NCBI GenBank assembly: GCA_016190545.1
Contig: JACPQI010000065.1
Coordinates: forward strand, 1 to 18,976
Reading direction: 5' to 3'
DNA length: 18,976 bases
From: Chloroflexota bacterium
GTDB taxonomy: Bacteria; Chloroflexota; Dehalococcoidia; SHYB01; JACPQI01
Shown: in pieces, positions 2,093 to 18,976 of the stretch
Layout of the letters: each line of letters starts with the position of its first letter
How positions within the stretch are numbered: position 1 is the stretch's first letter
Position numbers and translations under genes: made by a program
Notes under the pieces: model-generated
The model's input: only the letters and a program-made list of their open reading frames with translations
Database searches by the model: none
What the model was told of the DNA's origin: nothing

Positions 2093-2197
2093 CTATCGTT
2101 TGGGCGCGAACATCTCCGCGAGCAGTCCGACGCCTTCCAGGTGAAGACCCTTCCAGTCTCCCACGGTCTGCCCGACGCCGGCGCTGAGCGTGCTCAT
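2093..2197 (-). pseudogene. C-terminal remnant of a fourth SBP_bac_5 lipoprotein
   Basis: Directly after the SBP1 stop, overlapping as TAATG, a 34-codon frame runs to TAG at 2093. Its product contains GVGQTVGDWKGLHLEGVGL followed by LAEMFAPKR. This matches the last ~30 residues of the SBPs in this window: SBP3 ends GIGARIGSWKNTHLGGFGL...ETITSK and SBP1 ends GVGPSVAEWTVIMSSGLGP...ETFRAK. I read it as the tail of another SBP gene left behind when tandem paralogues recombined, rather than a gene in its own right. The TAATG overlap means it could still be translated by coupling. The rest of the 2038-2196 gap shows nothing else I recognise except the CaiB1 ribosome binding site. Confidence 0.7.
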
Positions 2198-3963: not shown

Positions 3964-4037
3964 GACGCACCTCCAAGATTCGAATCTCGGCCATCGCCTC
4001 AGCCGCACTAACAGGCATCCTGAAGCGGGATATCATT

Positions 4038-4763: not shown

Positions 4764-4764
4764 T

Positions 4765-4802
4765 TGACCGCCCGTTAGGGAGAAGTGACCGGTCGTTCGG
4801 TC
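4765..4802 (-). promoter_or_regulatory. Probable TetR operator: GACCG-N6-CGGTC inverted repeat plus a second half-site
   Basis: Plus-strand bases 4787-4802 read GACCGGTCGTTCGGTC, an inverted repeat of GACCG/CGGTC with a 6-base spacer, starting 2 bases downstream of the -10 box. A second related copy occurs exactly 21 bases away, two helical turns: TGACCGCCCGTT at 4765-4776 against TGACCGGTCGTT at 4786-4797. Position over the predicted transcription start and next to the tetR-type gene fits an autoregulatory operator. The assignment is by position and symmetry only. Confidence 0.6.
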
Positions 4803-4804
4803 GA

Positions 4805-4834
4805 ATAATAGCACACCCCAAAAAGCTGTGTCAA
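4805..4834 (-). promoter_or_regulatory. Sigma70-type promoter of the tetR-SBP1-CaiB1 unit
   Basis: On the minus strand, TTGACA (4834-4829) is followed by an 18-base spacer and TATTAT (4810-4805). The -35 matches the consensus fully and the -10 in five of six bases. The start of transcription would fall near 4798, inside the inverted repeat. It is the best promoter seen in the window. The -35 box lies just outside the transposase remnant, so it may have been brought in by the insertion sequence end (inference). Confidence 0.7.
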
Positions 4835-4855
4835 GCAGATGTACTCGTCCAGTGC

Positions 4856-5002
4856 ATGTGAGGCTGGAGCGGATTCGGAGGCAGCCTCTGGGTGGCAGGC
4901 ACGAAGATACTCCAGGGGCGTGCGTCAGGCAAGGGCCTCGTGGGGGCGGACGGTGTTGTGGAGGCGCTCCCACTGGGAGAGGGCGGCAGAGAGCGCAGGC
5001 AA
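4856..5002 (-). pseudogene. C-terminal fragment of an rve/IS481- or IS3-like transposase
   Basis: The minus-strand frame reads LPALSAALSQWERLHNTVR followed by PHEALA, then an in-frame TGA (4927-4925), then RTPLEYLRACHPEAASES and on to about SHA. The pair NTVRPHEAL...TPLEYL is the well-known C-terminal signature of DDE integrase-core transposases (W-x3-YNxxRPHxALxxxTPxEY). The stop replaces one residue inside this signature. The N-terminal part, including the catalytic DDE residues, is absent, so it is inactive. The fragment is fused in frame to a CaiB N-terminus upstream. I could not identify terminal inverted repeats. Confidence 0.8.
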
Positions 5003-5113
5003 CTCGATTTTGATCACCTCCGCGCCGGCGTCCGCCATCATTTGCGTGACCGGCGGCCCCGCGATGACGAGGATGAAATCTGCCACCCGTATGTCTTCCA
5101 GGATCTTCTCGGG
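5003..5113 (-). pseudogene. N-terminal fragment of a CaiB/BaiF CoA-transferase
   Basis: About 37 codons read PEKILEDIRVADFILVIAG and then PPVTQMMADAGAEVIKIE, aligning with residues 8-44 of CaiB1 (PQKLLGGMRVADFTLVIAG... MMADAGAEVIKVEP). It ends abruptly at the conserved VIKIE, where the transposase fragment begins in the same frame. No start codon with a ribosome binding site belongs to it; the first ATG of the open frame (5248) lies in unrelated sequence. It is a fossil, closer to CaiB1 than to CaiB2. Confidence 0.8.
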
Positions 5114-5148
5114 CGATACTGTCGATCGAGAACCCGCAGGCCAGCGCT

Positions 5149-5238
5149 TGTTTCTTTCCAGAAGGGAGACCTGCAGACGAACCAGGTGTTCCCGATTCGC
5201 CAGACCACCTCGCTCTTTGTCCCGGTGAACTTGAAGTC
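5149..5238 (-). pseudogene. Internal fragment of the unknown two-lobed protein family
   Basis: In another minus-strand frame these bases read DFKFTGTKSEVVWRIGNTW and then FVCRSPFWKET. This aligns without gaps with ELKVSSTASQVVWKYRGSE / FICRPPYWTAK in the intact protein at 17126-18184 and DLKVSTTRDKAVWTFRDME / FVCQPPHWSAK in the one at 12109-13146, sharing the VVW, F-x-C-R and P-x-W positions. Flanking bases up to about 5280 and down to 5114 give no further match. It is a third, decayed copy of the family. Confidence 0.7.
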
Positions 5239-5320
5239 GCTCAGACAATAGCGCTCGGACGGTAGCGCACGACGTCGGAAGGCTACGCTATCGTGGCGGA
5301 CGGGAATGAATATACCTCAC

Positions 5321-6148
5321 CTAAGGGGTCAACTTGAACAACCGATGGGCGTTGTTCCAGAGGATGTTCTCCTTGTCCTTGTCCAAGAGCATTCGCGACT
5401 CGCGGATGCCCAGGAGAACGTACGGGACCTCGTAGGTGAGCGGGTCCAGGTAAAGGTCCGAGCCGAACAGGATGCGAGTGGAGCCGAGCTGCTCCACGAA
5501 TTCTTCGAGCACTCTCCCAAGAGAGAACAGGGCCGCGGTCTCCACATAGATGTTCGGGAGCCGCTTGCACATGCTCAGCATGTAGCGGCTCTGGGTAAAC
5601 TCGGTCAGACCGGCTAGGGCAACGAACGAGACGGTAGGAAAAGCCTCCGCCAGGATCTCTAATTGCCAGGCCGACTCCAGCATGGACTCCGCCATAACGT
5701 GGACAAAGGCGGGCATCCCCAGTTCCGCCGTCTTCTTCAGGAACGGCCTCATGCGCCGGTCGACCATCGAGCTTCCCTGAAAGTGGTGGTGCCACACCAC
5801 GCCGTCCAGTTTCAGCTCCCCGGCCATCCGCTCCAGCTCAACCAGGCCTTCTTTTTCGCCGTGGAGCGGCTCCACGGTCCCCAGCGCTACCGGGAAGCGG
5901 TCTCTGTAACGGCGCCGGTATTCGGCGGCGAGGTCATTGAAACGTCGAGTGTCGGCTTGGCCCTTGGGCCGCTCGTATTGCAGGGTGGGAGAGATGGCGC
6001 ACTTGGCAATCCCGAAGCGGTCCATCACCGCAGTGCGCCGCTCGTAATCGTGGTCGAGGTCCCACGCCGCCTCCGTGAGGGCAGGCCCTTGGGCGATCTG
6101 CACCAGGCCGAAATGCTGGTGGACGTCAAAAGCGCTCTGAGGAGTCAT
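5321..6148 (-). CDS. Amidohydrolase family 2 metal-dependent hydrolase/decarboxylase
   Basis: 275 aa, typical for the ACMSD/gamma-resorcylate-decarboxylase-like amidohydrolase_2 group. The ATG at 6148 is preferred over one at 6214: AAGGAG lies 7 bases upstream and the conserved fold begins at once with FDVHQHFG. Metal-site motifs: His10 and His12 (DVHQH, strand 1), VVWHHHFQG (118-125), His150 in MPAFVHVMAES (145-155) and Asp231 in ILFGSDLYLDP (226-236). NNAHRLF (265-271) is the usual C-terminal cap. Oddly, the strand-6 position that normally reads like vlaHlGg is FVALAGLTEF (175-184), with no His, so metal binding may differ. The family hydrolyses or decarboxylates ring compounds and related acids. 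It is the last gene of the long directon, after SBP2. Substrate unknown. Confidence 0.88.
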   Translation of the reverse strand: MTPQSAFDVHQHFGLVQIAQGPALTEAAWDLDHDYERRTAVMDRFGIAKCAISPTLQYERPKGQADTRRFNDLAAEYRRRYRDRFPVALGTVEPLHGEKEGLVELERMAGELKLDGVVWHHHFQGSSMVDRRMRPFLKKTAELGMPAFVHVMAESMLESAWQLEILAEAFPTVSFVALAGLTEFTQSRYMLSMCKRLPNIYVETAALFSLGRVLEEFVEQLGSTRILFGSDLYLDPLTYEVPYVLLGIRESRMLLDKDKENILWNNAHRLFKLTP

Positions 6149-6167
6149 GGCATCGCTCCTTACCTCC

Positions 6168-6326
6168 TTAAATCGCCTGTTCCGCTCGCAGGAGAGCCAA
6201 GTCGTGTCCTTCACGAGGGACGCAATACAGCCGGGGGTCCCACTTGAAGGTACTCACATCGTCAACTGCAGCGCAAAACATGCAAGTCTGAGCATCAGCC
6301 TTGCGCCGTGTCCGGGCAGCAGCCAT
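6168..6326 (-). CDS. Hypothetical small ORF between SBP2 and the amidohydrolase
   Basis: A 52-codon frame starting at ATG 6326, 15 bases after the SBP2 stop, ending at a TAA that overlaps the amidohydrolase ribosome-binding region. The product is unrecognised; it contains TCMFCAAVDD and the segment KWDPRLYCVPREGHDL, with three cysteines. There is no Shine-Dalgarno before the ATG and codon third positions are not strikingly GC-rich. The 193-base gap holds nothing else I recognise. It may be a gene remnant or chance. Confidence 0.2.
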   Translation of the reverse strand: MAAARTRRKADAQTCMFCAAVDDVSTFKWDPRLYCVPREGHDLALLRAEQAI

Positions 6327-6341: not shown

Positions 6342-8084
6342 CTAGCGTCGGGGTTTGGCCGTCTCCAGCGTGAGGCCAACCCCCCCAGAAACTATTGTTT
6401 GCCACTCCGCCACCCTTTCGGTGGCTCCCCAGAGGGCCGAAGAGGCTCCTAGGGGTACGTCCACGTACTCTTCGTGGATCATGTCCTGTATCTGCCGAAT
6501 GAGCTGTACTCGCTGCTGGGGATCTACTGTGGTACCCAGCTTTCCCACGAGGCGATCGATCTCCGCTATGGGCAAGAGCCACACCACCCCGGCCGAGGAA
6601 TAGTGAACGGAGAAGACCCTGCTAGGGGAGGGAACTACCTGAGCAGGAAGGTTGAATACTGTCCCAACGACTTCGGTCTGGGGCCGGGCACGATACATGG
6701 GGGTCATAACTGCGAATTCCGTTGGGACGATTCTCGTTCGGACTCCGATGGCACTCCAGTAGCCAGCGACGGCTTCCGCAGCCCGGGGCATCCAGGGCGC
6801 AACGCTATGACTGGCACTCCAATATTTGATGTCGAAGCCCGCTGGATATCCGGCTTCCGCAAGTAACTGCCTGGCCCTTGCGGGGTCATAAGCAGTAGGC
6901 TGCCAGGAAGAGTCGAAGCCCTCGACTCCTTGAATGACCACGCTCCTTGCAGGCACGCTTCCAAAGCCCCCAAGCAAGGACTCGACGAGCTCCTGGCGAT
7001 TGACTGCGAGGGAGAGAGCCTTTCTCACATCCCGATTGGAAGAGGGGAATTGCTTGAACAGCTCGGGATTGCCGAACCCGAAGAACACTGCCCGGACGAC
7101 GGCAATGTTCTTAATCTCGTAGACACGAAGGCCTTGGCGGAGTAAGGCCGCCGCGTTCTCGGGGGAAACAGCGCCCATCTCTGTCTGCCCTGTCCGTAGC
7201 AAGGCCAGGCGAGTGCTTTCCTCGGGGACAAGGCGGATCTCCAGATTTCGGAACCCGGGCACTTGGCGATATGGATGAGACGCCAAGTTGGCCTCGTAGG
7301 TGTAGCGCACCCCCAAGTCATGGTTGATGATCTTCCATGGCCCGGTCCCCAGTGGCCGCCGGAAATAGACGTTGGCTCCCAACTCCTGAAAAGCCCTCTT
7401 GGATAGGACCACACCTTCCGTACCCGCCCGTGGGGAGAGCTGGACGATCAGCTCTGCCCACGGCTGCTTGGTGTGAAGGCGAGCCTCTTGAGGCGATACC
7501 GCCTCCACACGGCCGAGATTGGACCGCCACACTCCCGCACTGGCACTGGTTGCCGCCGGTTCCAGGACACGTTCCAGACTGAATTTTATATCTTCCGCTG
7601 TGATAGGGCGTCCATCATGGAAGCGGAGATCCCGAAGATGGAGGGTCCAAGCCGTACCGTCGTCGCTCATGGTCCATCGGTCCGCTGCTCCAGGTGCCAC
7701 GGTGCCGTCGGGGCTATGCCATATCACCCAGTCATACACGGGAGTCAACAGAGTATGGGCTACGTCCAGGGTCTCCCTCGTCGGGTCATTAGTTTCAAAG
7801 CCGAAACCAGGAACGGCTACCCGCAGGGTTCCCGTAGGTTGGTCAGAGCCAGCCGCCGGCGTTGGCGTAGCGACAGGGGAAGGAGTCGTTCGCGGCGTCG
7901 CGGTCGGCGTACTCACAAGTGAAGCGGTTGCCTGCGGCGCCGGCGTCGGCGTGCGAGTTGGTGAGGCGGTTGCTTGAGGCGCCAGCGTTGGTGTGGAATC
8001 CTCACCCCCGCCACAAGCGGCCACCGCGAGTCCCACAACAGTTATGAGAGACGAGATAAACACAATCCCTGATTTTCGCAGCAC
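6342..8084 (-). CDS. SBP2: extracellular solute-binding lipoprotein, SBP_bac_5 family
   Basis: 580 aa with GTG start at 8084, six bases after a GAGGGGG element. Another GTG at 8090 is possible; an in-frame ATG at 8168 would place 28 charged residues before the signal and is unlikely. The signal peptide is VLRKSG, a hydrophobic core and LAVAAC with lipid Cys24, then GGGE and a Thr/Pro/Ala/Ser linker to about residue 84. The ligand domain shows the family pattern: APGAADRWTMSDDGTAW, LRDLRFHDGRPITAEDIKF and ARARQLLAEAGYPAGF. It is more divergent from SBP1 and SBP3 than those two are from each other. It lies between CaiB2 and the amidohydrolase, with a 141-base gap before it that carries a short leader frame. 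No ABC permease or ATPase is nearby, so it must either serve transporters encoded elsewhere or deliver ligand in another way. Confidence 0.91.
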   Translation of the reverse strand: MLRKSGIVFISSLITVVGLAVAACGGGEDSTPTLAPQATASPTRTPTPAPQATASLVSTPTATPRTTPSPVATPTPAAGSDQPTGTLRVAVPGFGFETNDPTRETLDVAHTLLTPVYDWVIWHSPDGTVAPGAADRWTMSDDGTAWTLHLRDLRFHDGRPITAEDIKFSLERVLEPAATSASAGVWRSNLGRVEAVSPQEARLHTKQPWAELIVQLSPRAGTEGVVLSKRAFQELGANVYFRRPLGTGPWKIINHDLGVRYTYEANLASHPYRQVPGFRNLEIRLVPEESTRLALLRTGQTEMGAVSPENAAALLRQGLRVYEIKNIAVVRAVFFGFGNPELFKQFPSSNRDVRKALSLAVNRQELVESLLGGFGSVPARSVVIQGVEGFDSSWQPTAYDPARARQLLAEAGYPAGFDIKYWSASHSVAPWMPRAAEAVAGYWSAIGVRTRIVPTEFAVMTPMYRARPQTEVVGTVFNLPAQVVPSPSRVFSVHYSSAGVVWLLPIAEIDRLVGKLGTTVDPQQRVQLIRQIQDMIHEEYVDVPLGASSALWGATERVAEWQTIVSGGVGLTLETAKPRR

Positions 8085-8136
8085 GGTCACCCCCTCATTT
8101 GCATAGGATCGTTTTCGTCCAGAGCGTGTGACAGGC

Positions 8137-8181
8137 TCAAGGTAGGTCCGCGTTGATCTTCCTGTCAAGATGCATTTTCAT
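8137..8181 (-). CDS. Possible 14-codon leader ORF upstream of SBP2
   Basis: After the CaiB2 stop there is a strong AAGGAGG, five bases before ATG at 8181, opening a 14-codon frame (MKMHLDRKINADLP, then TGA at 8139-8137). The SBP2 GTG lies 52 bases further on in a different register. The ribosome binding site is better than that of SBP2 itself. It may be a leader peptide affecting SBP2 translation, or the leftover start of a lost gene. I see no hairpin pair that would prove attenuation. Confidence 0.3.
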   Translation of the reverse strand: MKMHLDRKINADLP

Positions 8182-8225: not shown

Positions 8226-9422
8226 TTAGACGGCTTTTTCAGCCCGAAGCTGGGCGATCTCGTTCTCATCCAGCTTCAGGAGTTTCCCCAAAATGTCGTT
8301 GGTGTGCTGCCCGAGCAAGGGCGGCGGCTCCAGTCGGGGCTGCGAGGCGCGCGTCGTCTTGATGAAGGTGCCTGCAGCGCGATACGCTCCAGCGACGGGG
8401 TGCTCAATGGACACCACCATGTCCCGTGCCTGGACGTGTTGGTCCTCCAGCGCTTCACCCACGGAATAGACCGGCGCGGCGCCCACACCCGCATTCCACA
8501 GGAGCGCCACCCATTCCCTGGCGGTGCGCTCGGCCAAGGCTTCTTCTATCAGGCTGCGCAGGACTTTATGATGCCGGACACGCGAGAGGACATTTTCAAA
8601 ACGGGGGTCATTGACGAGTGCAAGGCACCCTATGACTTTGCAGAACTCGGCCCACAACTCCTCATTCGATACAGTCACTACAAGATAGCCGTCGCTAGCT
8701 TTGAAAGCGCCCCACGGGGCCTGGGTAACCTGAAGCCCGCTGCCCGGGTCAGCCAGGTGCCCGGTGGCTAGATACCTGGTAGCGTGGAAGCCGAGGAGCC
8801 CCACGACGCAGTCCAGCATCGCCAGGTCGATGTGGCAGCCCTGGCCTTTCGCCCGCTGCTCATAGAGCGCGGCGGAGATGCTATAGGCCGCGCAGACCCC
8901 TGGAATGAGGTCGCCCACAGGCAGCCCCACACCCTCGGGCCTGGTACCGGGTTCCCCTGCGGTGCTGGCAAGACCGCTCAGGGCCTGGATGACGGGGTCG
9001 AAGCCCGGCAAATGCTGGTACGGACCGGTCTCGCCAAAGCCAGAAATGGAGCAGGAGATGACCTGAGGATTGAGCCGGGATAGGCTCTCTTGGTCCACGC
9101 CTATCCGCTTCGCCGCCTCTGGGCGAAAGCTATGGACGACCACGTTACTGAGGGGGACTAATTGATAGAAGAGGCGGCGTCCGGAATCCTTCTTGAGGTT
9201 GATGGTCACGCTCTTCTTGTTGCGGTTGAAGGCGAGCCAGTAAAGACTTACGCCATTGACGAACTCGGCTGCGGTGCCTATCCGACGCATCCGGTCCCCT
9301 TGGCCGGGCTCCTCGATCTTGATCACCTCAGCACCTTGGTCCGCCAGCAGCATGGTAGCCAAGGGCCCAGCCACCATGCGTGTCAAGTCGAGGACTCTTA
9401 CCCCTTCTAGAGGTAGCGCCAT
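8226..9422 (-). CDS. CaiB/BaiF family (type III) CoA-transferase, copy 2
   Basis: 398 aa, full length. The ATG at 9422 has GAGGAGG just upstream (spacing 4-5). Motifs: LEGVRVLDLTRMVAGPLATM at the start, ADQGAEVIKIEEPGQGD (27-43), WLAFNRNKKSVTINLKK (62-78), SISGFGETGPYQHLPGFD (125-142) and GLPVGDLIPGVCAAYSI (166-182), in which Asp171 is the predicted catalytic nucleophile forming the CoA thioester. The C-terminus has the customary PPLLGQHTNDIL segment. Compared with CaiB1 it is a distinct paralogue, not a recent duplicate. It lies 24 bases after the YHS gene and precedes SBP2. Likely role: CoA transfer from a CoA ester to the acid that feeds the acyl-CoA dehydrogenases next to it (inference from context). 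Confidence 0.94.
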   Translation of the reverse strand: MALPLEGVRVLDLTRMVAGPLATMLLADQGAEVIKIEEPGQGDRMRRIGTAAEFVNGVSLYWLAFNRNKKSVTINLKKDSGRRLFYQLVPLSNVVVHSFRPEAAKRIGVDQESLSRLNPQVISCSISGFGETGPYQHLPGFDPVIQALSGLASTAGEPGTRPEGVGLPVGDLIPGVCAAYSISAALYEQRAKGQGCHIDLAMLDCVVGLLGFHATRYLATGHLADPGSGLQVTQAPWGAFKASDGYLVVTVSNEELWAEFCKVIGCLALVNDPRFENVLSRVRHHKVLRSLIEEALAERTAREWVALLWNAGVGAAPVYSVGEALEDQHVQARDMVVSIEHPVAGAYRAAGTFIKTTRASQPRLEPPPLLGQHTNDILGKLLKLDENEIAQLRAEKAV

Positions 9423-9707: not shown

Positions 9708-10835
9708 TTAGAGGCCGAGGCCCAGCGCCACCTTCTCCAGGTTATCGTACATGCCCCCTAACCGGAGCTCACTCCCCTTGGCCCGGCGGAAGTAGAACTG
9801 GAGCGGGTACTCTTTCATGTGCCCAATAGCTGCATGAATCTGTGCCCCCACACTGGTCGCCTTGAGATAGGCATCTCGCGCCAGGACTCTCGCCACGGAT
9901 ACCTCTTTTGCCGCTGGCCTTCCGCTCGACAAAGCCCACAGCGCCCGGTAGGTCGCCAACCACGCGCCTCGCTCGAGCACATAGGCATCGGTGATTTGCC
10001 CCTGCACAGCTTGGAAGCCTCCGATTGGCCGCCCCAAGACGACCCTATTCTGGGCGTAGCGCACCGTCATCTCGAGGACCTTCCCAGTCCCGCCAACCAT
10101 TTCGGCGCAGCGCAGGGCGCTGGCCTGCTCCAGCGTCGCCTCAAGAGAAGGCCATCCCATTCCCACCTCTCCCACAACATCGTCAGGCGAAGTCGGCACG
10201 CCGCTCATCTCGACCGTAGCGACGCGCTCATTGTCTATGGGGCGCTCCTGGGTAATCCTCAAGCCGGGTTGACCGGCATCGATGGCGAGCAAGGTAACCG
10301 CGTCTGTGTCGCTGGTCGGACGCGCCGCGCAGACCAGAACGTCCGCCACGTGGCCCCAGTCCACCAGACATGACGTTCCTGTCAGTCGCCAGTCCTTCCC
10401 GTGTTGCTCCAGCCGAAATGGGATGTCCCATCCAGCGGTCCGCCCGGTAGGGCCAGAAACCGCGAGGGCCAATCGCTGTCCACCACGGACCAACTTGGGG
10501 AGCAGGCCCTTTTTTTGCTCCTCGCTTCCGGCTCGCTGAACGAGAGCGCCGCCTAAGGCCACCGTGCTAAAGTACGGCCCGGCGCAGGCCGCCCGTCCGA
10601 ACTCCTCCAGCAGCACGCCCAGGTCTATGAGGCTGCTCTCTTCGCCACCATAGGCCTTTGGGAACGAAAGTCCCAACCACCCTAACTCGGCCATCTTCTG
10701 CCACAGGTCTTGGCTGAAACCTTGAGAGTCCTCCTCCAAGGCATAGAGCAAAGAGTACGGGCATTCACGCTCGAAGAACTCCCGCGCCGCCTTGCGCAGC
10801 AGTTGTTGCTCCTGGGAATACGATAAGTCCACCAT
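9708..10835 (-). CDS. Acyl-CoA dehydrogenase, small subunit of a predicted heterotetramer
   Basis: 375 aa, full acyl-CoA dehydrogenase fold. N-terminal helices include LSYSQEQQLLRKAAREFF and LGWLGLSFPKAYGGEESSL. The FAD-contact motif YAQNRVVLGRPIGGFQAVQ (260-278) keeps Arg264 and the FQ pair. At helix G, where isovaleryl-CoA dehydrogenase has its catalytic Glu in DLER, I align Ala238 (LEQASALRCAEMVGG), so the base appears to be missing. The partner gene just upstream has the opposite pattern. Such complementary pairs form alpha2beta2 enzymes in steroid and cholesterol side-chain degraders (ChsE1-ChsE2, ChsE4-ChsE5). The start at 10835 has GGGAG about 10 bases upstream. It begins 32 bases after the large-subunit stop. 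It introduces the 2,3 double bond in a CoA ester, passing electrons to an acceptor such as ETF. Acyl chain unknown. Confidence 0.92.
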   Translation of the reverse strand: MVDLSYSQEQQLLRKAAREFFERECPYSLLYALEEDSQGFSQDLWQKMAELGWLGLSFPKAYGGEESSLIDLGVLLEEFGRAACAGPYFSTVALGGALVQRAGSEEQKKGLLPKLVRGGQRLALAVSGPTGRTAGWDIPFRLEQHGKDWRLTGTSCLVDWGHVADVLVCAARPTSDTDAVTLLAIDAGQPGLRITQERPIDNERVATVEMSGVPTSPDDVVGEVGMGWPSLEATLEQASALRCAEMVGGTGKVLEMTVRYAQNRVVLGRPIGGFQAVQGQITDAYVLERGAWLATYRALWALSSGRPAAKEVSVARVLARDAYLKATSVGAQIHAAIGHMKEYPLQFYFRRAKGSELRLGGMYDNLEKVALGLGL

Positions 10836-10867: not shown

Positions 10868-12070
10868 TCAGCGGTCTCGGGGCAGATCCAGCCCTCGCTG
10901 TGCGATACGTGCCCTGAGAAGCTCAATACCTCCGGCTCCAAACTTGAGCAGAGGGTAACGCAAGTAGAACTTGCCCACCATGCCTTCGAACACCCCTCGC
11001 CCGCCCACACTCGTGAGACTCAGAGGCCCCACGATGTTGGAAGCGGCGTTGGCGAGGCGCTCCCGCAGCTCCCCGGCCCACAGCTTGTGCATGGCCACCT
11101 GGACATGCTGGGACTCGCCTTGGTCTATCGTCCAAGAGGTCCACAGCCCCAGAAGCCCGGCCATTTCGATATCGCACGCTAAGCGCGCCAGCGTCTGCCT
11201 GATGGCGCTGTCCTGGCTGAGCGGTCTTCCATTCACCTGAGTCGTTTTGGCGTACTCGATGAGCTGGTCGAGCATCCAGCGGAGGTCGCTGATGAGCATG
11301 GCCCGCTCGAAGTCGATGGCCGTCATCGTAATCAAGAAACCTTGGCCTTCCTCACCCACCCGGCAACTGACCGGGACGCGGACATCCTCGAAGAACACCT
11401 CGTTGGTCTGCTCGCCCGTCTGAGTCATCAGGGGGCGAACGGTGATTCCAGGGGTATCCATGGGGACAAGAAGAATGGAGATGCCCTTGTGTTTGGGGAG
11501 TTCAGGATTGGTGCGGACAGCCAGCCACACATGGGTAGCGAAATGGGCCGTGGTGGTGAACATCTTCTGCCCGTTGATGACGTACTCGTCGCCGTCTCTG
11601 ACCGCCCGGGTCTGCAACGCCGCCAGGTCTGTGCCTCCTGACGGCTCGGTGTGGCCCATGGCAAAGTGAACCTCCTGCTTCATGATGCCAGGAAGGTACT
11701 TCTGTTTCTGCTCCTCCGTGCCCCAGCGCAACAGCACCGGAGCGAAGGCCCAAATCTCCATGCCGCCGACCGGCAGCCCTTTATAGATCAGCCTTTCCAT
11801 GAACTGCCACTGCTGGACTGTTGTCGGGCGCTTGCCCCCATACTCTGGAGGCCAGTTCATCCCCAGGTAGCCCTTCTCGCCCAGCTTCTGGAACCAGGCT
11901 AAGGCGCCGGGCGGAGTCGGGTCACCGCTCAACAGATACTCGCCCATCAGCGACTCCCCCTGCTGGTTCCTGACGCCACGACGGACCTCTGGCGGCACCT
12001 CTTTTTCGAGGAACTCGTCGAGCTCCTTGAAGAACTTCTCTTCCTCCGGCGTCGTGCCGAAATCGATCAT
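10868..12070 (-). CDS. Acyl-CoA dehydrogenase, large subunit of a predicted heterotetramer
   Basis: 400 aa from ATG 12070, chosen because AAGGAG lies 6 bases upstream; an in-frame ATG at 12133 would overlap the preceding gene and adds unrelated residues. Family motifs: LGMNWPPEYGGKRPT (69-83), FAMGHTEPSGGTDLAALQT (136-154), YVINGQKMFTTTAHFATHVW (163-182) and FFEDVRVPVSCRVGEEGQGF (226-245). Glu255 in AIDFERAML sits at the catalytic glutamate position of isovaleryl-CoA dehydrogenase. The normal FAD Arg and FQ positions are Thr277 and Asp-Ser (YAKTTQVNGRPLSQDSAIR), so it probably cannot bind FAD fully alone and shares the site with the small subunit. The C-terminus (RARIAQRGLDLPR) is the usual end of this clade. 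It lies between the unknown protein copy 1 and the small subunit, within short gaps. Confidence 0.93.
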   Translation of the reverse strand: MIDFGTTPEEEKFFKELDEFLEKEVPPEVRRGVRNQQGESLMGEYLLSGDPTPPGALAWFQKLGEKGYLGMNWPPEYGGKRPTTVQQWQFMERLIYKGLPVGGMEIWAFAPVLLRWGTEEQKQKYLPGIMKQEVHFAMGHTEPSGGTDLAALQTRAVRDGDEYVINGQKMFTTTAHFATHVWLAVRTNPELPKHKGISILLVPMDTPGITVRPLMTQTGEQTNEVFFEDVRVPVSCRVGEEGQGFLITMTAIDFERAMLISDLRWMLDQLIEYAKTTQVNGRPLSQDSAIRQTLARLACDIEMAGLLGLWTSWTIDQGESQHVQVAMHKLWAGELRERLANAASNIVGPLSLTSVGGRGVFEGMVGKFYLRYPLLKFGAGGIELLRARIAQRGLDLPRDR

Positions 12071-12108
12071 GCACGTCTCCTTAGGGCCTGCACTGCCTAA
12101 CGTCAGGA

Positions 12109-13146
12109 CTAGGGCCAGATGGTCCTCATCCACTCCACGGTAAACAGCACGTCTTTGACCGGCGTCGCGCCACCATCAGGCCGGATGAAGTGCCCATTCG
12201 CCGTTCCCATGATCCACACGTCCAGCACGTAGCCGGAGCGCAGGCACCAGATGCGGTTGACGCGCCCGTGGGCCACGGCCTCAACATCGAAGATGCCGTC
12301 CTTGGAGCGTTGGGTGAGGTGCCAGCGGCAGGGGATGGTAGCCAAGCTGCGCGGGTCCTTCCACCAGTCGGTGACCGCCAGCGACATGCCCCGGTCGGCC
12401 GCCACGAATTTCCCATCGACGAGCACCCGCCCATAGTTGACCGGGCCCCAAGTGAAGTGGAAGAATTGCAGCCCATCTCCGCCACCGATGAACCAGTACA
12501 TCTGGTGGCTGAAGGCCTCGCCCACGGCCCGCGCCAGGACCGGGTGCTCGTGGGCCCCGTAGCCGTTGGCGATGGGGTAGCGCTTGCCGTTCACAGTGAC
12601 AGCGCCCCTGGCGGCGGTGAACTGGTCGAAGCAGGCGACCCCGGTCTTGAGGATGTCCTTGAAGTCTCCGATGAAAAAGGAGGTAGGCGATGTGCCGATG
12701 ATGTTCAGGTCAAAGGAGATGTTTCCATGACGGCCTTTGGCGCTCCAGTGCGGCGGCTGGCACACAAACTCCATGTCCCGGAACGTCCAAACGGCTTTGT
12801 CCCTGGTGGTGCTCACTTTCAGGTCTTTGCTCTTGCCATAGTCGGCGGGCGTGAACCCCTGGCAGACGAAATCGGTATCGTTCATCTTGCCGCGCAGATT
12901 GGTGGGCACGGCAAGGAACATGGTGCAAACCGTGGCCGCATCGTCGGCCAGGAACCCGACCGGCGTCTTGCCGTGCAGAAAGTACGGCGCCACCCAGAAC
13001 ATCACGTCCTGTCCGTCGACCGTCGCCATGACGAGTTGCTGGGCGCCGCTCTCGAAGATGCTGATGTCCTTTGGCAGTTGCGGATAGTAGGGGATTTCGT
13101 GGCGCAGGATGAGGTCGCTTTGGGCCGTCAGCGCTTTCCGTGCCAT
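12109..13146 (-). CDS. Unknown conserved two-lobed protein, copy 1
   Basis: 345 aa, no signal peptide or membrane segment. I do not recognise the family with certainty. It is a beta-rich sequence with two similar halves' worth of aromatic strands. The mid-region YGAHEHPVLARAVG followed by MYWFIGGGDGLQFFHFTWG resembles the G-x-x-EH...WF...DG pattern of AttH/CrtC (carotenoid 1,2-hydratase-like, double-lipocalin) proteins and of diels-alderase-like DUFs; that is a weak, pattern-level match. Conserved in both copies: AATVCTMFLAVP, LRGKMNDTDFVCQGF, SPTSFFIGDFK, RSLATIPCRWH and the end VEWMRTIWP. The start has AAGGAGG with 5-base spacing. It lies 29 bases after the luciferase-like gene and 38 before ACAD-L, which suggests a part in the same CoA-linked pathway. 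It might hydrate or isomerise an isoprenoid or ring-bearing substrate, or bind it. Confidence 0.75.
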   Translation of the reverse strand: MARKALTAQSDLILRHEIPYYPQLPKDISIFESGAQQLVMATVDGQDVMFWVAPYFLHGKTPVGFLADDAATVCTMFLAVPTNLRGKMNDTDFVCQGFTPADYGKSKDLKVSTTRDKAVWTFRDMEFVCQPPHWSAKGRHGNISFDLNIIGTSPTSFFIGDFKDILKTGVACFDQFTAARGAVTVNGKRYPIANGYGAHEHPVLARAVGEAFSHQMYWFIGGGDGLQFFHFTWGPVNYGRVLVDGKFVAADRGMSLAVTDWWKDPRSLATIPCRWHLTQRSKDGIFDVEAVAHGRVNRIWCLRSGYVLDVWIMGTANGHFIRPDGGATPVKDVLFTVEWMRTIWP

Positions 13147-13175
13147 GGCTCCTCCTTGGTGTTCGTGTCTCGTCG

Positions 13176-14189
13176 TTACCGCTTGAAGGCGGGGAGCACC
13201 TCGCGACCCAGGGTGGAGATGAAGAGGTCGCGGTCCGGCATGACGCCCGCTATGAACAGCTTCCGTACGCCATGTTTCTGTAGCTTACGGATCGTAGATA
13301 TCCAGTCGGCGGGCGTGCCGACGATGGCGAAGCGCTCCACGAGGTAGTCGCGCAGCCCCAATTCGTCAACCAACTCAGCCTGCCGTACTGCGCCCGCCTG
13401 CACATGCCGGGTAAAGTCGTACTCCGCCATCAGCTTCTTGATAGCCGGCACCAGCTTGGGCGGGAGCTGCTTTCCCTCCAGCGTCACGCTAAAGGCCAGG
13501 CCGGCGCTGCTCGCCAGCCCGGAGCGGATGTCGTAGCCGGCTGCCTCTTTGCTCGCGCCCAGATTGCCCTTGGCGAACCACCACACGTCGATATCCTCCA
13601 CTCGCCGCCCGGCCTCCTTCGCCCCCTTTTCTAATTCGTCCAGAGAGCTTTGGATGATCTCCGGCGTCAGGCCCGTGCCGATGAGCACCCCATCGGCCAC
13701 GCGGGCCGCCATGCGCAGCACCTTAGGGCCGCTGGCCGAGATGAAGACCGGCACCGGCTTGCGCGCCCACATCATGCGGATGGTCTTGCCTTGATAGGTG
13801 GCGGTTGTATCGGCCCACAGCGACTTCAGCGCCAGGACGTATTCCTCCAACCCCGCAGTGGTGGAGGGCCGCATACCCAGGTTCGCAACACCGCTGTAGC
13901 CGGTAGCGATACCCAAGACGGCCCGCCCGTTCGACAGCACGTCAATGGAGGAGATGGCCCCGGCGGCCACTACCGGATGCCGGACGAGAGGATTGGTGAC
14001 GAAGACGCCCAGCTTACAGGTCTTGGTGTTGAGCGCGGCCAGCGTGAGGGCCACGTATGGGTCCATTATGAGGGCCGCGGAGTCGCCGACCGAGACCATG
14101 TCAAATCCCACCTGCTCCGCCAAACTGACCTGCCGGATGAACTCGGCGGGTGTGTATGCCGGCAGCCCGATGGCAAAACTCATGGTCAT
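13176..14189 (-). CDS. Luciferase-like (LLM class) flavin/F420-dependent oxidoreductase
   Basis: 337 aa from ATG 14189, with AAGGAGG 7 bases upstream; a longer frame from 14273 has no such site. The protein is a single TIM-barrel bacterial-luciferase-like domain: FAIGLPAYTPAEFIRQVSLA at the start, EQVGFDMVSVGDS, LGVFVTNPLVRHPVVAAGA (typical of the Mer/F420 subgroup, TNP-x-x-RHP), LGIATGYSGVANLGMRPST and PVPVFISASGPKVLRMAAR. These resemble 5,10-methylenetetrahydromethanopterin reductase-like F420 enzymes; FMN cannot be excluded. Such enzymes reduce, dehydrogenate or oxygenate small substrates. SAR202 Chloroflexota are known for large expansions of related flavin oxidoreductases. The gene follows the epimerase after 111 bases; the gap has no recognisable element besides the ribosome site. 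Substrate unknown. Confidence 0.92.
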   Translation of the reverse strand: MTMSFAIGLPAYTPAEFIRQVSLAEQVGFDMVSVGDSAALIMDPYVALTLAALNTKTCKLGVFVTNPLVRHPVVAAGAISSIDVLSNGRAVLGIATGYSGVANLGMRPSTTAGLEEYVLALKSLWADTTATYQGKTIRMMWARKPVPVFISASGPKVLRMAARVADGVLIGTGLTPEIIQSSLDELEKGAKEAGRRVEDIDVWWFAKGNLGASKEAAGYDIRSGLASSAGLAFSVTLEGKQLPPKLVPAIKKLMAEYDFTRHVQAGAVRQAELVDELGLRDYLVERFAIVGTPADWISTIRKLQKHGVRKLFIAGVMPDRDLFISTLGREVLPAFKR

Positions 14190-14300
14190 AGCATCGCCTC
14201 CTTTTCGTTTGCGCCTGGTCACGGGCCAACAGGAAGAAACAGCGGGTACATCCCGACAAAAAAGGCGTACCAACTGTCCACGTTGCGTCCTACTTTCTGC

Positions 14301-15272
14301 CTAGCGTGTGGCGGCCCGGTGGGCCATGTACCATTCCTTGTAGTGGGCCAGGGCCTTCTCCAAGGGGTACGAAGGCGTATAGCCCAACTGCTCACGGGCA
14401 CGGCTCAGGTCCATAGGGCCAGCGACGTTGAACGGGAGCGGAGCGGCCCTGACCGTTGTATCCACCTTCACCTTGGCGCCGGAGAACACCCGCTGCACGA
14501 TGGCCGCCAACTCCTGCGGCGTGAAAAACTCCCCCGCGCCGATGTTGAACACCCTGTTCTTCAGCCCCTTGGCCCGGGAGGCCAGGAAGGCGCCCCGCGC
14601 CGCGTCCTCGGAGTAGGCGAATTCGAATCGCATGGTGGAGAGGGTGACCTCTTTCCCGGCGAGAGAGGCTTCCGTCCACCCTCGGACCATCTCCGTCAGC
14701 AGGCCACCGCCGCCAGGGGTCTTCCACGGCCCGAACAGGCCGGGGAAGCGCACTGCCACACAGTCCACGCCAAAGGCCTCCGCGTAGTTGATGGCCAGGG
14801 CTTCCGCCGCCTGTTTCGTGGTGGCGTAGACGCCGCGTGTCCGAGGAAAGGCCTCCTCTTTTGTGAGGTCGCCTCTGTCTTCGCCGCCCGTCATCATCAA
14901 GGGGATGGCGCTGCTGCTGCAGACCGTCACCCTCTCTATGCCAAAGATGCGAGCCGCCTCCAGGACGTTGGCGGTGCCCACCACGTTCACCATGACAGCC
15001 AGGTGCGGCTTCAACTGGGCGCCCGCCGTCAAGCCGGGGTTGGCCGCCGTGTGGATGATGCGCTCGACTTTCTCCTTGCGGATGGTCTCAGCCAGTTCGA
15101 GGGGGTTCAGCACGTCGCCCCGCACCACGACGCAGCGCTTCAGGTCGACGACCTCCGCCATCGCCTCCGGGTTGGGGGCGATGTCGTAGAGGATGGGCCT
15201 GCCGCCTGCCTCCAGCTCGTGCCGAGCCACCCGCGCCCCCACGGGCCCGGCGCCGGTAATCAAGGTGCTCAT
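14301..15272 (-). CDS. NAD-dependent epimerase/dehydratase (extended SDR) family protein
   Basis: 323 aa from ATG 15272 with AAAGGAG 4-5 bases upstream; the upstream open frame to 15392 overlaps SBP3 and is rejected. A Rossmann nucleotide-binding start is seen in MSTLITGAGPVGARVARHEL (G-x-G-x-x-G spacing), with acidic LYDIAP ending strand 2, which favours NAD. HTAANPGLT (95-103) and VCSSSAIPL supply the conserved small-residue and Ser positions, and GVYATTKQAAEAL carries the YxxxK catalytic pair. VRFPGLFGPWKTPGGG is the usual RxxxxYGP-like segment. The C-terminal part closes with TPSYPLEKALAHYKEWY. It might reduce, dehydrate or epimerise a hydroxy or keto group. It begins 19 bases after SBP3 stops, so it is surely in the same transcript. 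Not clearly a sugar enzyme; the context is CoA and flavin catabolism. Confidence 0.9.
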   Translation of the reverse strand: MSTLITGAGPVGARVARHELEAGGRPILYDIAPNPEAMAEVVDLKRCVVVRGDVLNPLELAETIRKEKVERIIHTAANPGLTAGAQLKPHLAVMVNVVGTANVLEAARIFGIERVTVCSSSAIPLMMTGGEDRGDLTKEEAFPRTRGVYATTKQAAEALAINYAEAFGVDCVAVRFPGLFGPWKTPGGGGLLTEMVRGWTEASLAGKEVTLSTMRFEFAYSEDAARGAFLASRAKGLKNRVFNIGAGEFFTPQELAAIVQRVFSGAKVKVDTTVRAAPLPFNVAGPMDLSRAREQLGYTPSYPLEKALAHYKEWYMAHRAATR

Positions 15273-15291
15273 GCCGCTCCTTTCGTCAGGG

Positions 15292-17061
15292 TTACTTGGA
15301 CGTGATGGTCTCCGCAAAGAGGCCAAACCCGCCCAGATGCGTGTTCTTCCACGAGCCAATACGTGCGCCGATGCCGTACAGGTCCGGCACAATGGCCACG
15401 GGTATGGTTGTGTAGTTTCCGTGCACTATGTTCATGAACTGGCGGATGAGGGCCACTTGCTTGGTAGTATCCGTCTCTCCCAGGGCCTGGTCAATGAGTG
15501 CGTCCGTCCTCGGGTCCGGGTGGTTGTAGGTGATCCCTCCGGAGTGGAAGAACACTCGCAGGAAGTTCATGTTGGTGGGCGTGACGGCGCCGTAGACGGT
15601 AGTCGCCTGGCCCATGTAGTCCTCCGGCTGGGGCCGTTTTCTCCAGTTCGTGAACAATGTTCCTGCATCCGTTGGGACGATTTGGGGAGTGATGCCTATG
15701 TTGGACCAGTAGCCTGCCGCGGCCTCAGCGAGTCGCGGCATCCAGGCGGCGCCGGGAGCCGAATAGCTATACACTCTGACGGAGAAGCCGCGTGAATAAC
15801 CGGCGGCAGCCAATAGCTCCTTGGCGCGCGTCGGGTTGTACGGCTCTGGTGTCCAGGAGGGATCCCAGCCCAGGGTACCGGGTGTTACCAGCATGCGCGG
15901 GGAGATTTCGGCCAAGCCGGTAAACAGCGTGTCGATGATCTCCTTGGTATTAATGGAGTTAAACAGGGCCTGTCGCACGTCCTTCTTTCCCAAAGGAAGC
16001 GCATCGACCCGGGGATCGCCATACCCCATCAATACGATGTTTGCGGTGTTCAGCCTGGGGATAGTCAACACACGTAGAGTCCCGCTCTTTTGGACCGAGG
16101 CAGCGGTGTCAAAGGAGCCGATATCCACCATGTCGGCGGCGCCAGTCCGCAGCATGGCGATTCGGGTGCTTTCTTCAGGGACCAGGAGAAGTTCCATCTC
16201 CTTGAACGCCGGCGTGGACCTGTACGGATGGGTGTAGGGTGATGGCTGGTAGACGAAGCGGACACCGCGTTCGCGGCGGACAAGCTGCCATGGCCCGGTC
16301 CCGATGGGCTTCTCTTCAAAACCGGTCTCGCCCACGCGGTCCGTGTAGGCCTTGGGCACTACCATGCCCTCCGAGCCTGTCCTAGGGCCAACGTCGTATG
16401 GCATGAGGGGCCAATTCCGTTTGAGGTTCACGCGGACGGATGTAGGAGACAGCACCGTTACAGACTCCACGCTCGCCTTATAGCTGGCGGCGTTCGTGCC
16501 CTGCCGTGGGCTGTCGGCGTGGGCGACGACGATGTCGTAGGTGAACTTCACGTCGTCCGCCGTCACCGGGTCGCCGTTGTGGAAGCGCATGCCAGGCCGC
16601 AGGTCGAGCGTCCAGCTTTTGGCATCGGCGGCCATCTGCCATCGCTGAATCACGCCAGGAGCAGGAGAGCCGTCCTCGTTGGTCGTGAACAGCGAATCGT
16701 ACATAGGGCCCAGGTAGCTGCGGGCCGCCGCGATGCGCCCAAAGGATGGCTGGACATCTTCGGTGACGAAGGAGGAGATGGCGACCGTCAGTTTGCCAGC
16801 CGGCCCAGACAGGGCAGCCGTGGCAGTCGCCGCCGGGCGTGTTGCCGCCGGCGCTGTGGTGGCGGTAGGCGCAGCGGTCGCCGCCGGCCTCGGGGTAGGC
16901 GTGGAGGGCGCCGCGGTTGCGGGTGGCCGCGTCGCCGTGGCGGCTGGCGCTCGCGTGGGGACCGGCGTCGCCTCTTCTCCGCCGCCGCAGGCCGCAGCCA
17001 GCAGGCCTAAGGCCATTGTCAGGAACACGATAAGGACACTGGGTTTCGTTAATCGTTCCAT
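15292..17061 (-). CDS. SBP3: extracellular solute-binding lipoprotein, SBP_bac_5 family
   Basis: 589 aa from ATG 17061, chosen for AGGAGG with 6-base spacing and because the signal peptide follows at once (MERLTKP, hydrophobic core, LGLLAAAC with lipid Cys25). An upstream ATG at 17187 would overlap the preceding gene. Residues 29-88 are a Thr/Pro/Ala linker. Family motifs: APGVIQRWQMAADAKSW, LRPGMRFHNGDPVTADDVKF, PIGTGPWQLVRRERGVRF and ARTNPTRAKE-like region before LLAAAGYSRGF. It is the nearest relative of SBP1 and its C-terminus (ARIGSWKNTHLGGFGL) is closest to the SBP remnant at 2093-2197. It lies between the unknown protein copy 2 (64-base gap) and the epimerase. The ligand is not predictable; peptide-type folds of this family bind many organics. 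No transporter core genes are visible. Confidence 0.92.
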   Translation of the reverse strand: MERLTKPSVLIVFLTMALGLLAAACGGGEEATPVPTRAPAATATRPPATAAPSTPTPRPAATAAPTATTAPAATRPAATATAALSGPAGKLTVAISSFVTEDVQPSFGRIAAARSYLGPMYDSLFTTNEDGSPAPGVIQRWQMAADAKSWTLDLRPGMRFHNGDPVTADDVKFTYDIVVAHADSPRQGTNAASYKASVESVTVLSPTSVRVNLKRNWPLMPYDVGPRTGSEGMVVPKAYTDRVGETGFEEKPIGTGPWQLVRRERGVRFVYQPSPYTHPYRSTPAFKEMELLLVPEESTRIAMLRTGAADMVDIGSFDTAASVQKSGTLRVLTIPRLNTANIVLMGYGDPRVDALPLGKKDVRQALFNSINTKEIIDTLFTGLAEISPRMLVTPGTLGWDPSWTPEPYNPTRAKELLAAAGYSRGFSVRVYSYSAPGAAWMPRLAEAAAGYWSNIGITPQIVPTDAGTLFTNWRKRPQPEDYMGQATTVYGAVTPTNMNFLRVFFHSGGITYNHPDPRTDALIDQALGETDTTKQVALIRQFMNIVHGNYTTIPVAIVPDLYGIGARIGSWKNTHLGGFGLFAETITSK

Positions 17062-17125
17062 CGCAGACCTCCTAAAGCTATGTCTGTCAACATCAAATTC
17101 GCCTTGCCACATGCTTGAGACTTTC

Positions 17126-18184
17126 CTACGGCCAGAGCGTACGCACCCACTCAACCTCATAGAGCACGTCCTTGACAGGGACGACACGCCCGTTGGGGTA
17201 GAGGACGGAGCCGTTCAGTGTGCCGAGGAACCAGGTGTCTAGCAGGTACCCGAACCGCATCGCCCAGATGCGGTTGATGCGCCCCGAGGCCACGGCCTCC
17301 ACGTCCACGATGGCCTTGGGGGAGCGCATGTTGACGTGCCATCGGCACGGCATGGTCGCCAGGCTGCGGGGGTCCTTCCAGTGCTCCAGGGTGTGGATGG
17401 TAACGTCGTTGTCGCCGAAGGGAAGGTACTCGCCGTCGACCATGATCCGGCCATACCTGTGGTTACCCCAACTGAAGCAGAAGAACTGGAGAGGGTCGCC
17501 GCCGCCGACAAACCACAGCATCTGCTGCGCCGTAGACCCCTGGCTGAAGGCTTGGCCCATAGCCATGGTGCTGATGCAGTGCTCATGGCCGCCGAAACCC
17601 TTAGCGATGGCATAGCTCTTCTGGCCCGCCTTGATGGTGCCGGTGCAGGTGGTGAACTGGTCGAAGTCCGCTACGGGGACCTCTTTCGGGAACTTCTTGA
17701 AGTCCCCGATGTAGTAGGAGGTCGGGGCTGTGCCTGTGATCTTCAGGTCGTAAGAGAGGTCGCCATCTTTGCCCTTGGCGGTCCAGTAGGGCGGGCGGCA
17801 GATGAATTCCGAACCACGGTACTTCCATACCACCTGGCTTGCGGTGCTGCTCACCTTCAGTTCGGTGTCCTTGCCGTAGTCCGCCGGCGAGAAGCCCTGG
17901 CAGATGTAATCAGTGTCGTTCATGTGGCCGCGCAGCTTCTTGGGGACGGCCAGGAACATGGTACAGACCGTTGCGGCCCGGTCCGCCATGAAGCCGTCTC
18001 GCGTTGCGCCGTGGAGGTAGTAGGGGGACGCCCAGAACAAGATGTCCTGATCACCTACCTCCGCAAAGATGACGTGTTCAGGCCCACCTTCGAAGATGTT
18101 CAGGTCCTTGGACAGCTTGGGGTAGAAGGGCTTCTCCAGGTCCAACGGAATGGTGCTTTGGGGCTTGAGCGCAGCGCGAGCCAT
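17126..18184 (-). CDS. Unknown conserved two-lobed protein, copy 2
   Basis: 352 aa, paralogue of the protein at 12109-13146 and by eye about half identical over the full length. It starts MARAALKPQSTI and ends VEWVRTLWP. Shared landmarks: AATVCTMFLAVPKKLRG, DTDYICQGFSPADYG, FICRPPYWTAKGKDGDLSY, TAPTSYYIGDFKKF, GFGGHEHCIST and RSLATMPCRWHVNMRS. The GGHEH and MLWFVGGGDPLQFFCFSWG segments again recall the AttH/CrtC-like double-lipocalin pattern, at low confidence. Compared with copy 1 it has a small insertion before MLWF (FSQGSTAQQ). AAGGAGG precedes the ATG by five bases. It heads the directon after the 186-base gap and is followed by SBP3. No signal peptide, so a cytoplasmic role is expected. 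Confidence 0.75.
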   Translation of the reverse strand: MARAALKPQSTIPLDLEKPFYPKLSKDLNIFEGGPEHVIFAEVGDQDILFWASPYYLHGATRDGFMADRAATVCTMFLAVPKKLRGHMNDTDYICQGFSPADYGKDTELKVSSTASQVVWKYRGSEFICRPPYWTAKGKDGDLSYDLKITGTAPTSYYIGDFKKFPKEVPVADFDQFTTCTGTIKAGQKSYAIAKGFGGHEHCISTMAMGQAFSQGSTAQQMLWFVGGGDPLQFFCFSWGNHRYGRIMVDGEYLPFGDNDVTIHTLEHWKDPRSLATMPCRWHVNMRSPKAIVDVEAVASGRINRIWAMRFGYLLDTWFLGTLNGSVLYPNGRVVPVKDVLYEVEWVRTLWP

Positions 18185-18370: not shown

Positions 18371-18976
18371 TTATCCATCCCAGGGCTTCTCGGCGGCGGC
18401 GTTCGCTCCGGCGACGTGGCCGACGGCATAGGACTCAGCCAACGGCCCTCCGCCATGCGACAGCATTCCCCAGAAAGAACCCAGGTCGCCGGCGGAGTAG
18501 AGGCCCGGGATGGGTGTGTTGTCGGGATGGAGAACTTGCCCTCGGACATTCCTCTTTGGGCCGCCCTGGGTATCCGAGCCACCGAGCCAGAGCTGGACAG
18601 CGTAGAAGGGCGGGCTGTCCAGCGGCACCAGCGTGGGCGTGGGGCGGTGGAAATCGGGGTCTCGCCCCTCCTGGCAGTAGCGGTTGTAGGTCTTGACCGT
18701 CTCTTCCAAGACCGCAGCGCTCATCATGAGCCTGCCATCCGATTCCTTGCCTATGGCGCTGATAAGGTCGGCCACCGTGCGGCCCTTCATGATCCAGCCC
18801 TTCTCCATCTCGGCCCCGTTATCTTCGCTCCAGCGGTAGTAGTTGGGGCCCATGACCCCGCCTGGCGGGTTGCACGGCCCCAGGCCCATCGGCAGCGGCC
18901 CGCCACGCATCCGCTTCTCGTCGAAAATCCAATAGATCGGTATGCGCGGATAGCAGAGGCCGTGGGAATCATAGAA
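18371..18976 (-). CDS. FAD-binding flavoprotein dehydrogenase/reductase (FrdA/KstD-like), 5' part missing
   Basis: C-terminal 201 codons of a gene that starts beyond the right edge and stops with TAA at 18371. The end holds the second FAD-binding segment of the FAD_binding_2 family: GQVLHPDNTPIPGLYSAGDLG (split here as GQVLHPDNTP and IPGLYSAGDLG), then SFWGMLSHGGGPLAESYAVG and AGANAAAEKPWD. The cap-domain part has LEETVKTYNRYCQEGRDPDF and PPFYAVQLW before the conserved GGSDTQGGPKRNVRG. Members include fumarate and urocanate reductases, 3-ketosteroid dehydrogenases and tricarballylate dehydrogenase. They move hydride across a C=C bond using FAD. The catalytic region needed to choose among them is mostly outside the window. 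It precedes the directon by 186 bases and may or may not be co-transcribed. Confidence 0.88.
   Translation of the reverse strand, partial: FYDSHGLCYPRIPIYWIFDEKRMRGGPLPMGLGPCNPPGGVMGPNYYRWSEDNGAEMEKGWIMKGRTVADLISAIGKESDGRLMMSAAVLEETVKTYNRYCQEGRDPDFHRPTPTLVPLDSPPFYAVQLWLGGSDTQGGPKRNVRGQVLHPDNTPIPGLYSAGDLGSFWGMLSHGGGPLAESYAVGHVAGANAAAEKPWDG

Follow-up and report, generated by a model that had tools for sequence, protein, structure and literature searches.

A rare, duplicated branch of the predicted AttH/CrtC double-lipocalin fold in a catabolic gene cluster of a Chloroflexota bacterium: a possible cofactor-free enzyme

The AttH/CrtC double-lipocalin fold has few characterised bacterial members, one of them being 25-phosphosteroid lyase (PDB release January 2026). 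For the hydratase RgCrtC, PMC4717167 names His239, Trp241, Tyr266 and Asp268 as essential residues; a later study by modelling and mutagenesis (PMC12402844) concludes that the cavity for the substrate lies between the two barrels. CrtC and the fungal protein CghA have both been described as cofactor-free. In anaerobic sterol breakdown a 25-hydroxysteroid kinase phosphorylates a tertiary alcohol of the steroid and the phosphate is then eliminated, as set out in PMC8449060, PMC11061730 and PMC7411048. Here we describe two paralogous proteins, member A (P0002) and member B (P0003), encoded on contig JACPQI010000065.1 of a Chloroflexota bacterium (assembly GCA_016190545.1), whose 18,976 nucleotides we refer to as the window. 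We favour, at roughly even odds (about 0.5), the reading that they represent a rare, duplicated branch of the AttH/CrtC fold which, within a catabolic cluster, acts as a cofactor-free enzyme on a hydrophobic compound, probably of isoprenoid or steroid type.

Members A and B comprise 345 and 352 residues and align over their full length with 56% identity and 72% similarity (E 7e-153). A preliminary description of the stretch had reported two intact paralogues with common landmarks, and this holds: both open reading frames (ORFs) are intact, lie where that description placed them and carry CTMFLAVP, F-x-C-(R/Q)-x-P-x-W, PTS(F/Y)(F/Y)IGDFK, (A/G)HEH and VEW(M/V)RT(I/L)WP. An AGGAG-type sequence precedes each ATG, with the Shine-Dalgarno-like AAGGAGGAGCC ahead of that of member A, in which no hydrophobic leader was seen by eye.

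To which family do these proteins belong? The only Pfam match is Lipocalin_9 (PF17186), which member B reaches with 23.5 bits (E 6.4e-5), just under the cut-off of 26.2 bits, and P0004, a partial relative, with 19.1 bits. Nine of ten family sequences match this model at E ≤ 1, which is more telling than one weak match. For CrtC (PF07143) no match is listed at E ≤ 10 for either window protein. The cut-offs of DUF7065 and DUF7064 (PF23213/PF23212) were not reached by the ten members; DUF7065 matched two of them at E ≤ 1, with a best score of 16.9 bits against 27, and is not listed for the window proteins. NCBIfam offers nothing credible for the family, and sequence searches of the PDB with member B and two family alignments (A3, A7) gave no credible match. 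Weak matches to HipA, DUF2817 and ferrochelatase were judged to be due to chance. The earlier statement that the proteins fall into no recognised family thus stands in the sense that no curated Pfam or NCBIfam model claims them.

The structure model of member B is predicted to adopt the AttH/CrtC double lipocalin, that is, two packed lipocalin-like β-barrels within about 320–370 residues. A prediction from three sequences had reached a predicted local distance difference test (pLDDT) score of 32.1 and was discarded. The preliminary description had guessed at this fold and proposed a structure prediction as a check; prediction and fold matches bear the guess out. On the strength of the model, fold and superfamily are almost certainly those of the AttH/CrtC double lipocalins. 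This is a genuine family of known fold that bears no curated name. The model fold is also matched by the Catovirus protein A0A1V0SB04 (Foldseek E 5e-9), the sole protein of the viral library at E ≤ 0.001.

Candidate catalytic residues emerge from profile alignments made with several family alignments. E201-H202 of member B aligns with the Asp-(Arg/His) of a D-(R/H)-(E/Q)-(W/F) motif in 15 of 15 CrtC/AttH-type proteins, a comparison that is flattered, as these proteins were chosen through their match to the family profile (13 from the phylum of genome G001, two at E 6e-4 and 2e-3) and recognised by an EWWY motif rather than by Pfam, one other such protein having been checked against Pfam. The Pfam and structure results are free of that bias. 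Across all 12 members the position of E201 holds Glu, always followed by a basic residue (three His, two Lys, seven Arg). From spacing and relatives we infer that His239 of RgCrtC sits within a D-H-x-W motif; at the position likely to match it, the family retains a basic residue. E201 and H202 may accordingly be viewed as a putative acid-base pair taking part in catalysis.

How could such a protein work? The substrate, a hydrophobic molecule probably of isoprenoid or steroid type, would be held in a cavity between the barrels, where a group would be added, removed or rearranged without a cofactor, as in a hydratase, lyase or isomerase, possibly with the help of the E201-H202 pair. The surrounding solute-binding proteins (SBPs), CoA-transferases, acyl-CoA dehydrogenases and flavin oxidoreductases would serve uptake, activation and degradation of the molecule. 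Because the characterised proteins of the fold include prenyl, steroid and polyketide enzymes, and because of the catabolic neighbours, we consider an enzyme somewhat more probable than a carrier; that its substrate is isoprenoid- or steroid-like is a more tentative suggestion.

The family proved difficult to find. Searching 5.8 billion proteins with member B, in a search that reaches only relatives sharing exact five-residue words, returned solely P0004 (94% identity) and the window's own copy, and a three-row profile gave the same result. It was tblastn against plasmids that opened the family, with two relatives (P0005 and P0006) about 9 kb apart on plasmid pSA2 of Novosphingobium resinovorum, at 26% identity (E 2e-21). 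Adding these led to at least five more proteins, none with a precomputed Pfam domain (7996 candidates scored). Further plasmid searches found the pSA2 record again and no other, and scans of genome_contigs and viral_contigs with family alignments gave no match.

Genome searches were centred on the genomes of 24 loci matched by the window's three SBPs; those in the phylum of G001 (titled Chloroflexota) and in the classes of G319 and G407 scored the first five to six candidates in each genome and may have missed members. A ten-row profile matched at least 13 of 400 genomes of the G001 phylum at E ≤ 1e-5, always inside profile positions 138–305 of 363, and all 13 matches contain EWWY, as ordinary CrtC/AttH-type proteins do. 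At least three of 294 genomes matched in the class of G319. Full-length members come from one of the three, G882, which has two (E 3e-58 and 2e-55); the match in G793 is an ordinary CrtC-type protein, and that in G863 (L058) spans 62 positions (E 3.4e-6). Within the order of G882 one of 18 genomes matched, G882 itself. Among the first five to six candidates scored per genome, none of 385 genomes matched in the class of G407 (Euryhalocaulis, an alphaproteobacterium). A twelve-row profile found no match in 168 genomes of the phylum of a Pseudonocardiaceae genome or in 175 of the phylum of a Salinisphaera genome. A search for true CrtC matched one of 142 genomes. Within the sampled genomes, the family is rare and patchy.

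In a tree of the 12 members and four CrtC/AttH-type proteins, the family forms one clade (support 100/100), apart from the ordinary CrtC/AttH proteins. We regard it as a deep branch of the AttH/CrtC fold that is rare and has no name. Separate groups are formed by the window copies together with P0004, by the G882 pair and by the copies of Novosphingobium type; the window, G882 and pSA2 pairs therefore stem from different duplications. With the outgroup, window and G882 copies group together (88/87), and the pSA2 duplication predates the split from P0009. Both the tree and the gene make-up point to Chloroflexota as the origin of the window. Its two members are lineage-specific duplicates, and pairs of this kind have arisen three times, each in a lineage of its own.

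All fourteen genes of the window's feature list lie on the minus strand (Table 1). Member B is flanked by the FAD_binding_2 oxidoreductase at the window edge and an SBP, member A by the LLM-class oxidoreductase and the acyl-CoA dehydrogenase pair. Rfam gave no window match at gathering scores.

Table 1. Features of the window, with the two family members and the remnants of the scar region
Feature	Position	Strand	Remarks
CaiB/BaiF CoA-transferase family III	823..2037	-	
Family-5 ATP-binding cassette (ABC) SBP	2197..4008	-	
TetR regulator (TetR_C_24)	4038..4973	-	True start probably internal to ORF
Possible integrase-core (rve_3) remnant	4931..5011	-	E 0.0042; 17.3 bits, below curated cut-off of 26.5
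CaiB N-terminus fragment	4994..5101	-	Pfam; blastp 80% identity over 30 residues to CaiB 823-2037
Family fossil	5155..5262	-	tblastn, hmmsearch, 100 shuffles; about 29–35 residues, matches family residues 100–135 only
Amidohydrolase 2 family protein	5321..6214	-	
Family-5 ABC SBP	6342..8168	-	
CaiB/BaiF CoA-transferase family III	8226..9422	-	
Acyl-CoA dehydrogenase	9708..10835	-	Second-best NCBIfam model PimD, below cut-off
Acyl-CoA dehydrogenase	10868..12133	-	Best NCBIfam model PimC, below cut-off; likely start 12070 (by eye)
Member A (P0002)	12109..13146	-	345 residues, ORF intact
LLM-class flavin/F420-dependent oxidoreductase (Bac_luciferase)	13176..14273	-	
NAD-dependent epimerase/dehydratase-type short-chain dehydrogenase/reductase	14301..15392	-	
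Family-5 ABC solute-binding lipoprotein	15292..17061	-	Adjoins member B; Pfam SBP_bac_5 6.8e-62; start 17061 likely, ORF extends to 17187
Member B (P0003)	17126..18184	-	352 residues, ORF intact; structure model
FAD_binding_2 oxidoreductase, C-terminal part (fumarate-reductase / 3-ketosteroid-dehydrogenase kind)	18371..18976	-	Cut by window edge

The 19 kb cluster thus holds three family-5 solute-binding lipoproteins that are paralogues of one another and have linkers rich in Pro, Thr and Ala behind the lipobox; relative to the one beside member B, the first in the table shows 52% and the second 37% identity. The adjacent acyl-CoA dehydrogenases may form a heteromeric enzyme, since PimC and PimD are among their best NCBIfam models, although neither reaches its cut-off. 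When the longer of the two was searched against 400 genomes of the G001 phylum, 30 genomes matched at E ≤ 1e-60 with at most 43% identity, and therefore no close kin of the window is present among the sampled genomes.

A small apparent scar (4925-5262) comprises a remnant of the family, a CaiB N-terminal fragment and a possible integrase-core remnant. The preliminary description had listed a fragment here (5149-5238) as a fossil sharing the landmarks of the two full proteins. It is genuine: tblastn detects it at 5158-5262 with member B (34% over 35 residues, E 3e-4) and member A (31%, E 0.014), and when the window, with both member genes masked, is searched in six frames it scores 18.0 bits (E 1.7e-5) against the family profile, compared with 6.9 bits for the best of 100 dinucleotide shuffles. 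The earlier account was overstated as to extent, with about 29–35 residues left and F-x-C-R-x-P-x-W as the sole landmark kept. Because it adjoins the CaiB fragment and the weak integrase-core piece, the site looks like a rearrangement scar.

The neighbourhoods of the relatives repeat that of the window in part. On contig 28 of G882, P0012 lies between a GMC oxidoreductase and an SBP of the Peripla_BP_6 type (SBP_bac_5 in the window); three CaiB genes, a TetR of the window's Pfam type, an aldehyde:ferredoxin oxidoreductase and two 2-hydroxyglutaryl-CoA-dehydratase-like subunits are found there too. Elsewhere on this contig (L065, 1105-7255) are genes for a B12-dependent mutase, a thiolase and a ketosynthase-III-like protein whose zinc and OB domains are of the ChsH2 type. 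On pSA2 both family genes adjoin TonB receptors, with TetR, acyl-CoA dehydrogenase, MaoC, short-chain dehydrogenases/reductases, aldehyde dehydrogenase and APH phosphotransferases nearby; no CaiB match was found there. The PLSDB gene table is incomplete and may miss neighbour genes on this plasmid. The expectation that SBP, CaiB and acyl-CoA dehydrogenase partners would recur in other Chloroflexota is therefore borne out in part for G882, the one other Chloroflexota-placed genome in which members were found: contig 28 has an adjacent SBP (of the other type), CaiB and TetR, but no match to the window acyl-CoA dehydrogenases, contig 49 has no match to the window SBP, CaiB, TetR or acyl-CoA dehydrogenase proteins, and the relatives are very scattered. 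An uptake gene directly adjoins four of the six members with readable neighbours (member B and P0012 by SBPs, P0005 and P0006 by TonB receptors), the exceptions being member A and P0013. Twin-arginine-like leaders are present in P0005, P0006, P0008 and P0009, and absent from the window members, the G882 members and P0010. The two pSA2 genes (L001, 14836-15948 and 24131-25345) both have one, that of the first, P0005, lying upstream of the annotated start.

Several observations weigh against a cofactor-free enzyme of the proposed kind. A shared fold reveals no function, and for the fold relative NE1406 no activity is known. The suggested substrate is deduced from proteins of like fold and from neighbours that belong to broad families; no NCBIfam cut-off was reached by any of the nine window neighbours scanned. 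Lipocalin_9 matches member A far more weakly than member B (13.4 bits, E 0.09), and the two G882 members have no Pfam match at E ≤ 0.01. The position of RgCrtC Trp241 corresponds to I204 in member B and holds Trp in none of the 12 members. Around P0013 on contig 49 of G882, a GMC oxidoreductase gene lies at a distance of about 5 kb, but most of the other genes, such as those for TauE, a NUBPL-type ATPase and a hexapeptide protein, do not look catabolic. With uptake genes so often adjacent, the strongest rival is a binding or carrier protein, which would receive a water-insoluble substrate from the uptake machinery, hold it in its barrels and deliver it to the enzymes of catabolism. Lipocalins are classic binders (PMC2954199), and the copies with leaders would act in the periplasm. 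The copies without leader, those of the window among them, would not meet an extracytoplasmic SBP, however; among solved structures of the fold, those with an activity in the title are of enzymes, and a conserved acid-base pair is more expected in an enzyme. On balance we regard a carrier as unlikely.

The relation to known enzymes of the fold could also be closer than we assume. A phosphate-eliminating lyase like 25-phosphosteroid lyase, acting after a kinase has phosphorylated a tertiary alcohol, would suit the APH-type kinases near both pSA2 members, although this pairing is weak evidence because APH genes are present in 13 of 14 control genomes. Scanning of window proteins revealed no APH domain, both APH hits of G882 lie on contigs other than those of its members, and CghA, NE1406 and others score a higher Z than the lyase. 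As the authors of PMC8449060 found no lyase candidate near their kinase gene, kinase distance does not decide the matter; overall we consider such a lyase improbable. Poorer still are the odds for a carotenoid or terpene hydratase of the strict CrtC type: Lipocalin_9 is the nearest Pfam model and a basic residue occupies the His239-like position, but the PF07143 match and the Trp are missing, the family forms a clade of its own in the tree, and no carotenoid gene is found among 13 Pfam-scanned window proteins.

What would a cofactor-free enzyme mean in this setting? Uncultured Chloroflexota of SAR202 have been proposed to oxidise recalcitrant sterol- or hopanoid-like matter via expanded flavin-monooxygenase and CaiB families (PMC5395668). 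The window cluster resembles this proposal in kinds of gene only, to which the family would add a candidate non-redox enzyme. Going further, and with distinctly less confidence, one may imagine an undescribed class of cofactor-free AttH-fold enzymes acting on steroids or terpenoids, in which E-(H/K/R) replaces D-(R/H)-x-W. Duplications in sphingomonads and in uncultured Chloroflexota would have been independent of each other, and the enzymes would catalyse a key step that makes recalcitrant hydrophobics accessible to CoA-linked breakdown. The genes are small, paired and open to expression and testing.

The closest described systems compare with the family as follows. AttH-like NE1406 (PDB 2ich; PF09410/DUF2006 in the structure paper) is 10% identical and is missed by the family profile at E 10. 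25-Phosphosteroid lyase (PDB 9fzn, 9g2i, 9g4c), known here from PDB titles, has the fold in common at about 9–10% identity and belongs to bacterial sterol catabolism (pathway in PMC11061730); unlike for this lyase, no kinase partner was found among the scanned window proteins or near the G882 members. The lipocalin-like Diels-Alderases CghA, Phm7 and Fsa2 give the top Z scores (24.7–25.8), yet they are fungal and biosynthetic, at 8–14% identity, and their likeness is a fold match only. Kievitone hydratase (PDB 7a0q, 7a0t) is 12% identical and has D-R-Q-W where the family has E-(H/K/R). From carotenoid 1,2-hydratase, CrtC (PF07143 and PF17186), the family differs in its first-domain model, its Trp241 position and its clade, and it resembles CrtC in a Lipocalin_9-like second domain and in an acid-base pair in register with D-(R/H).

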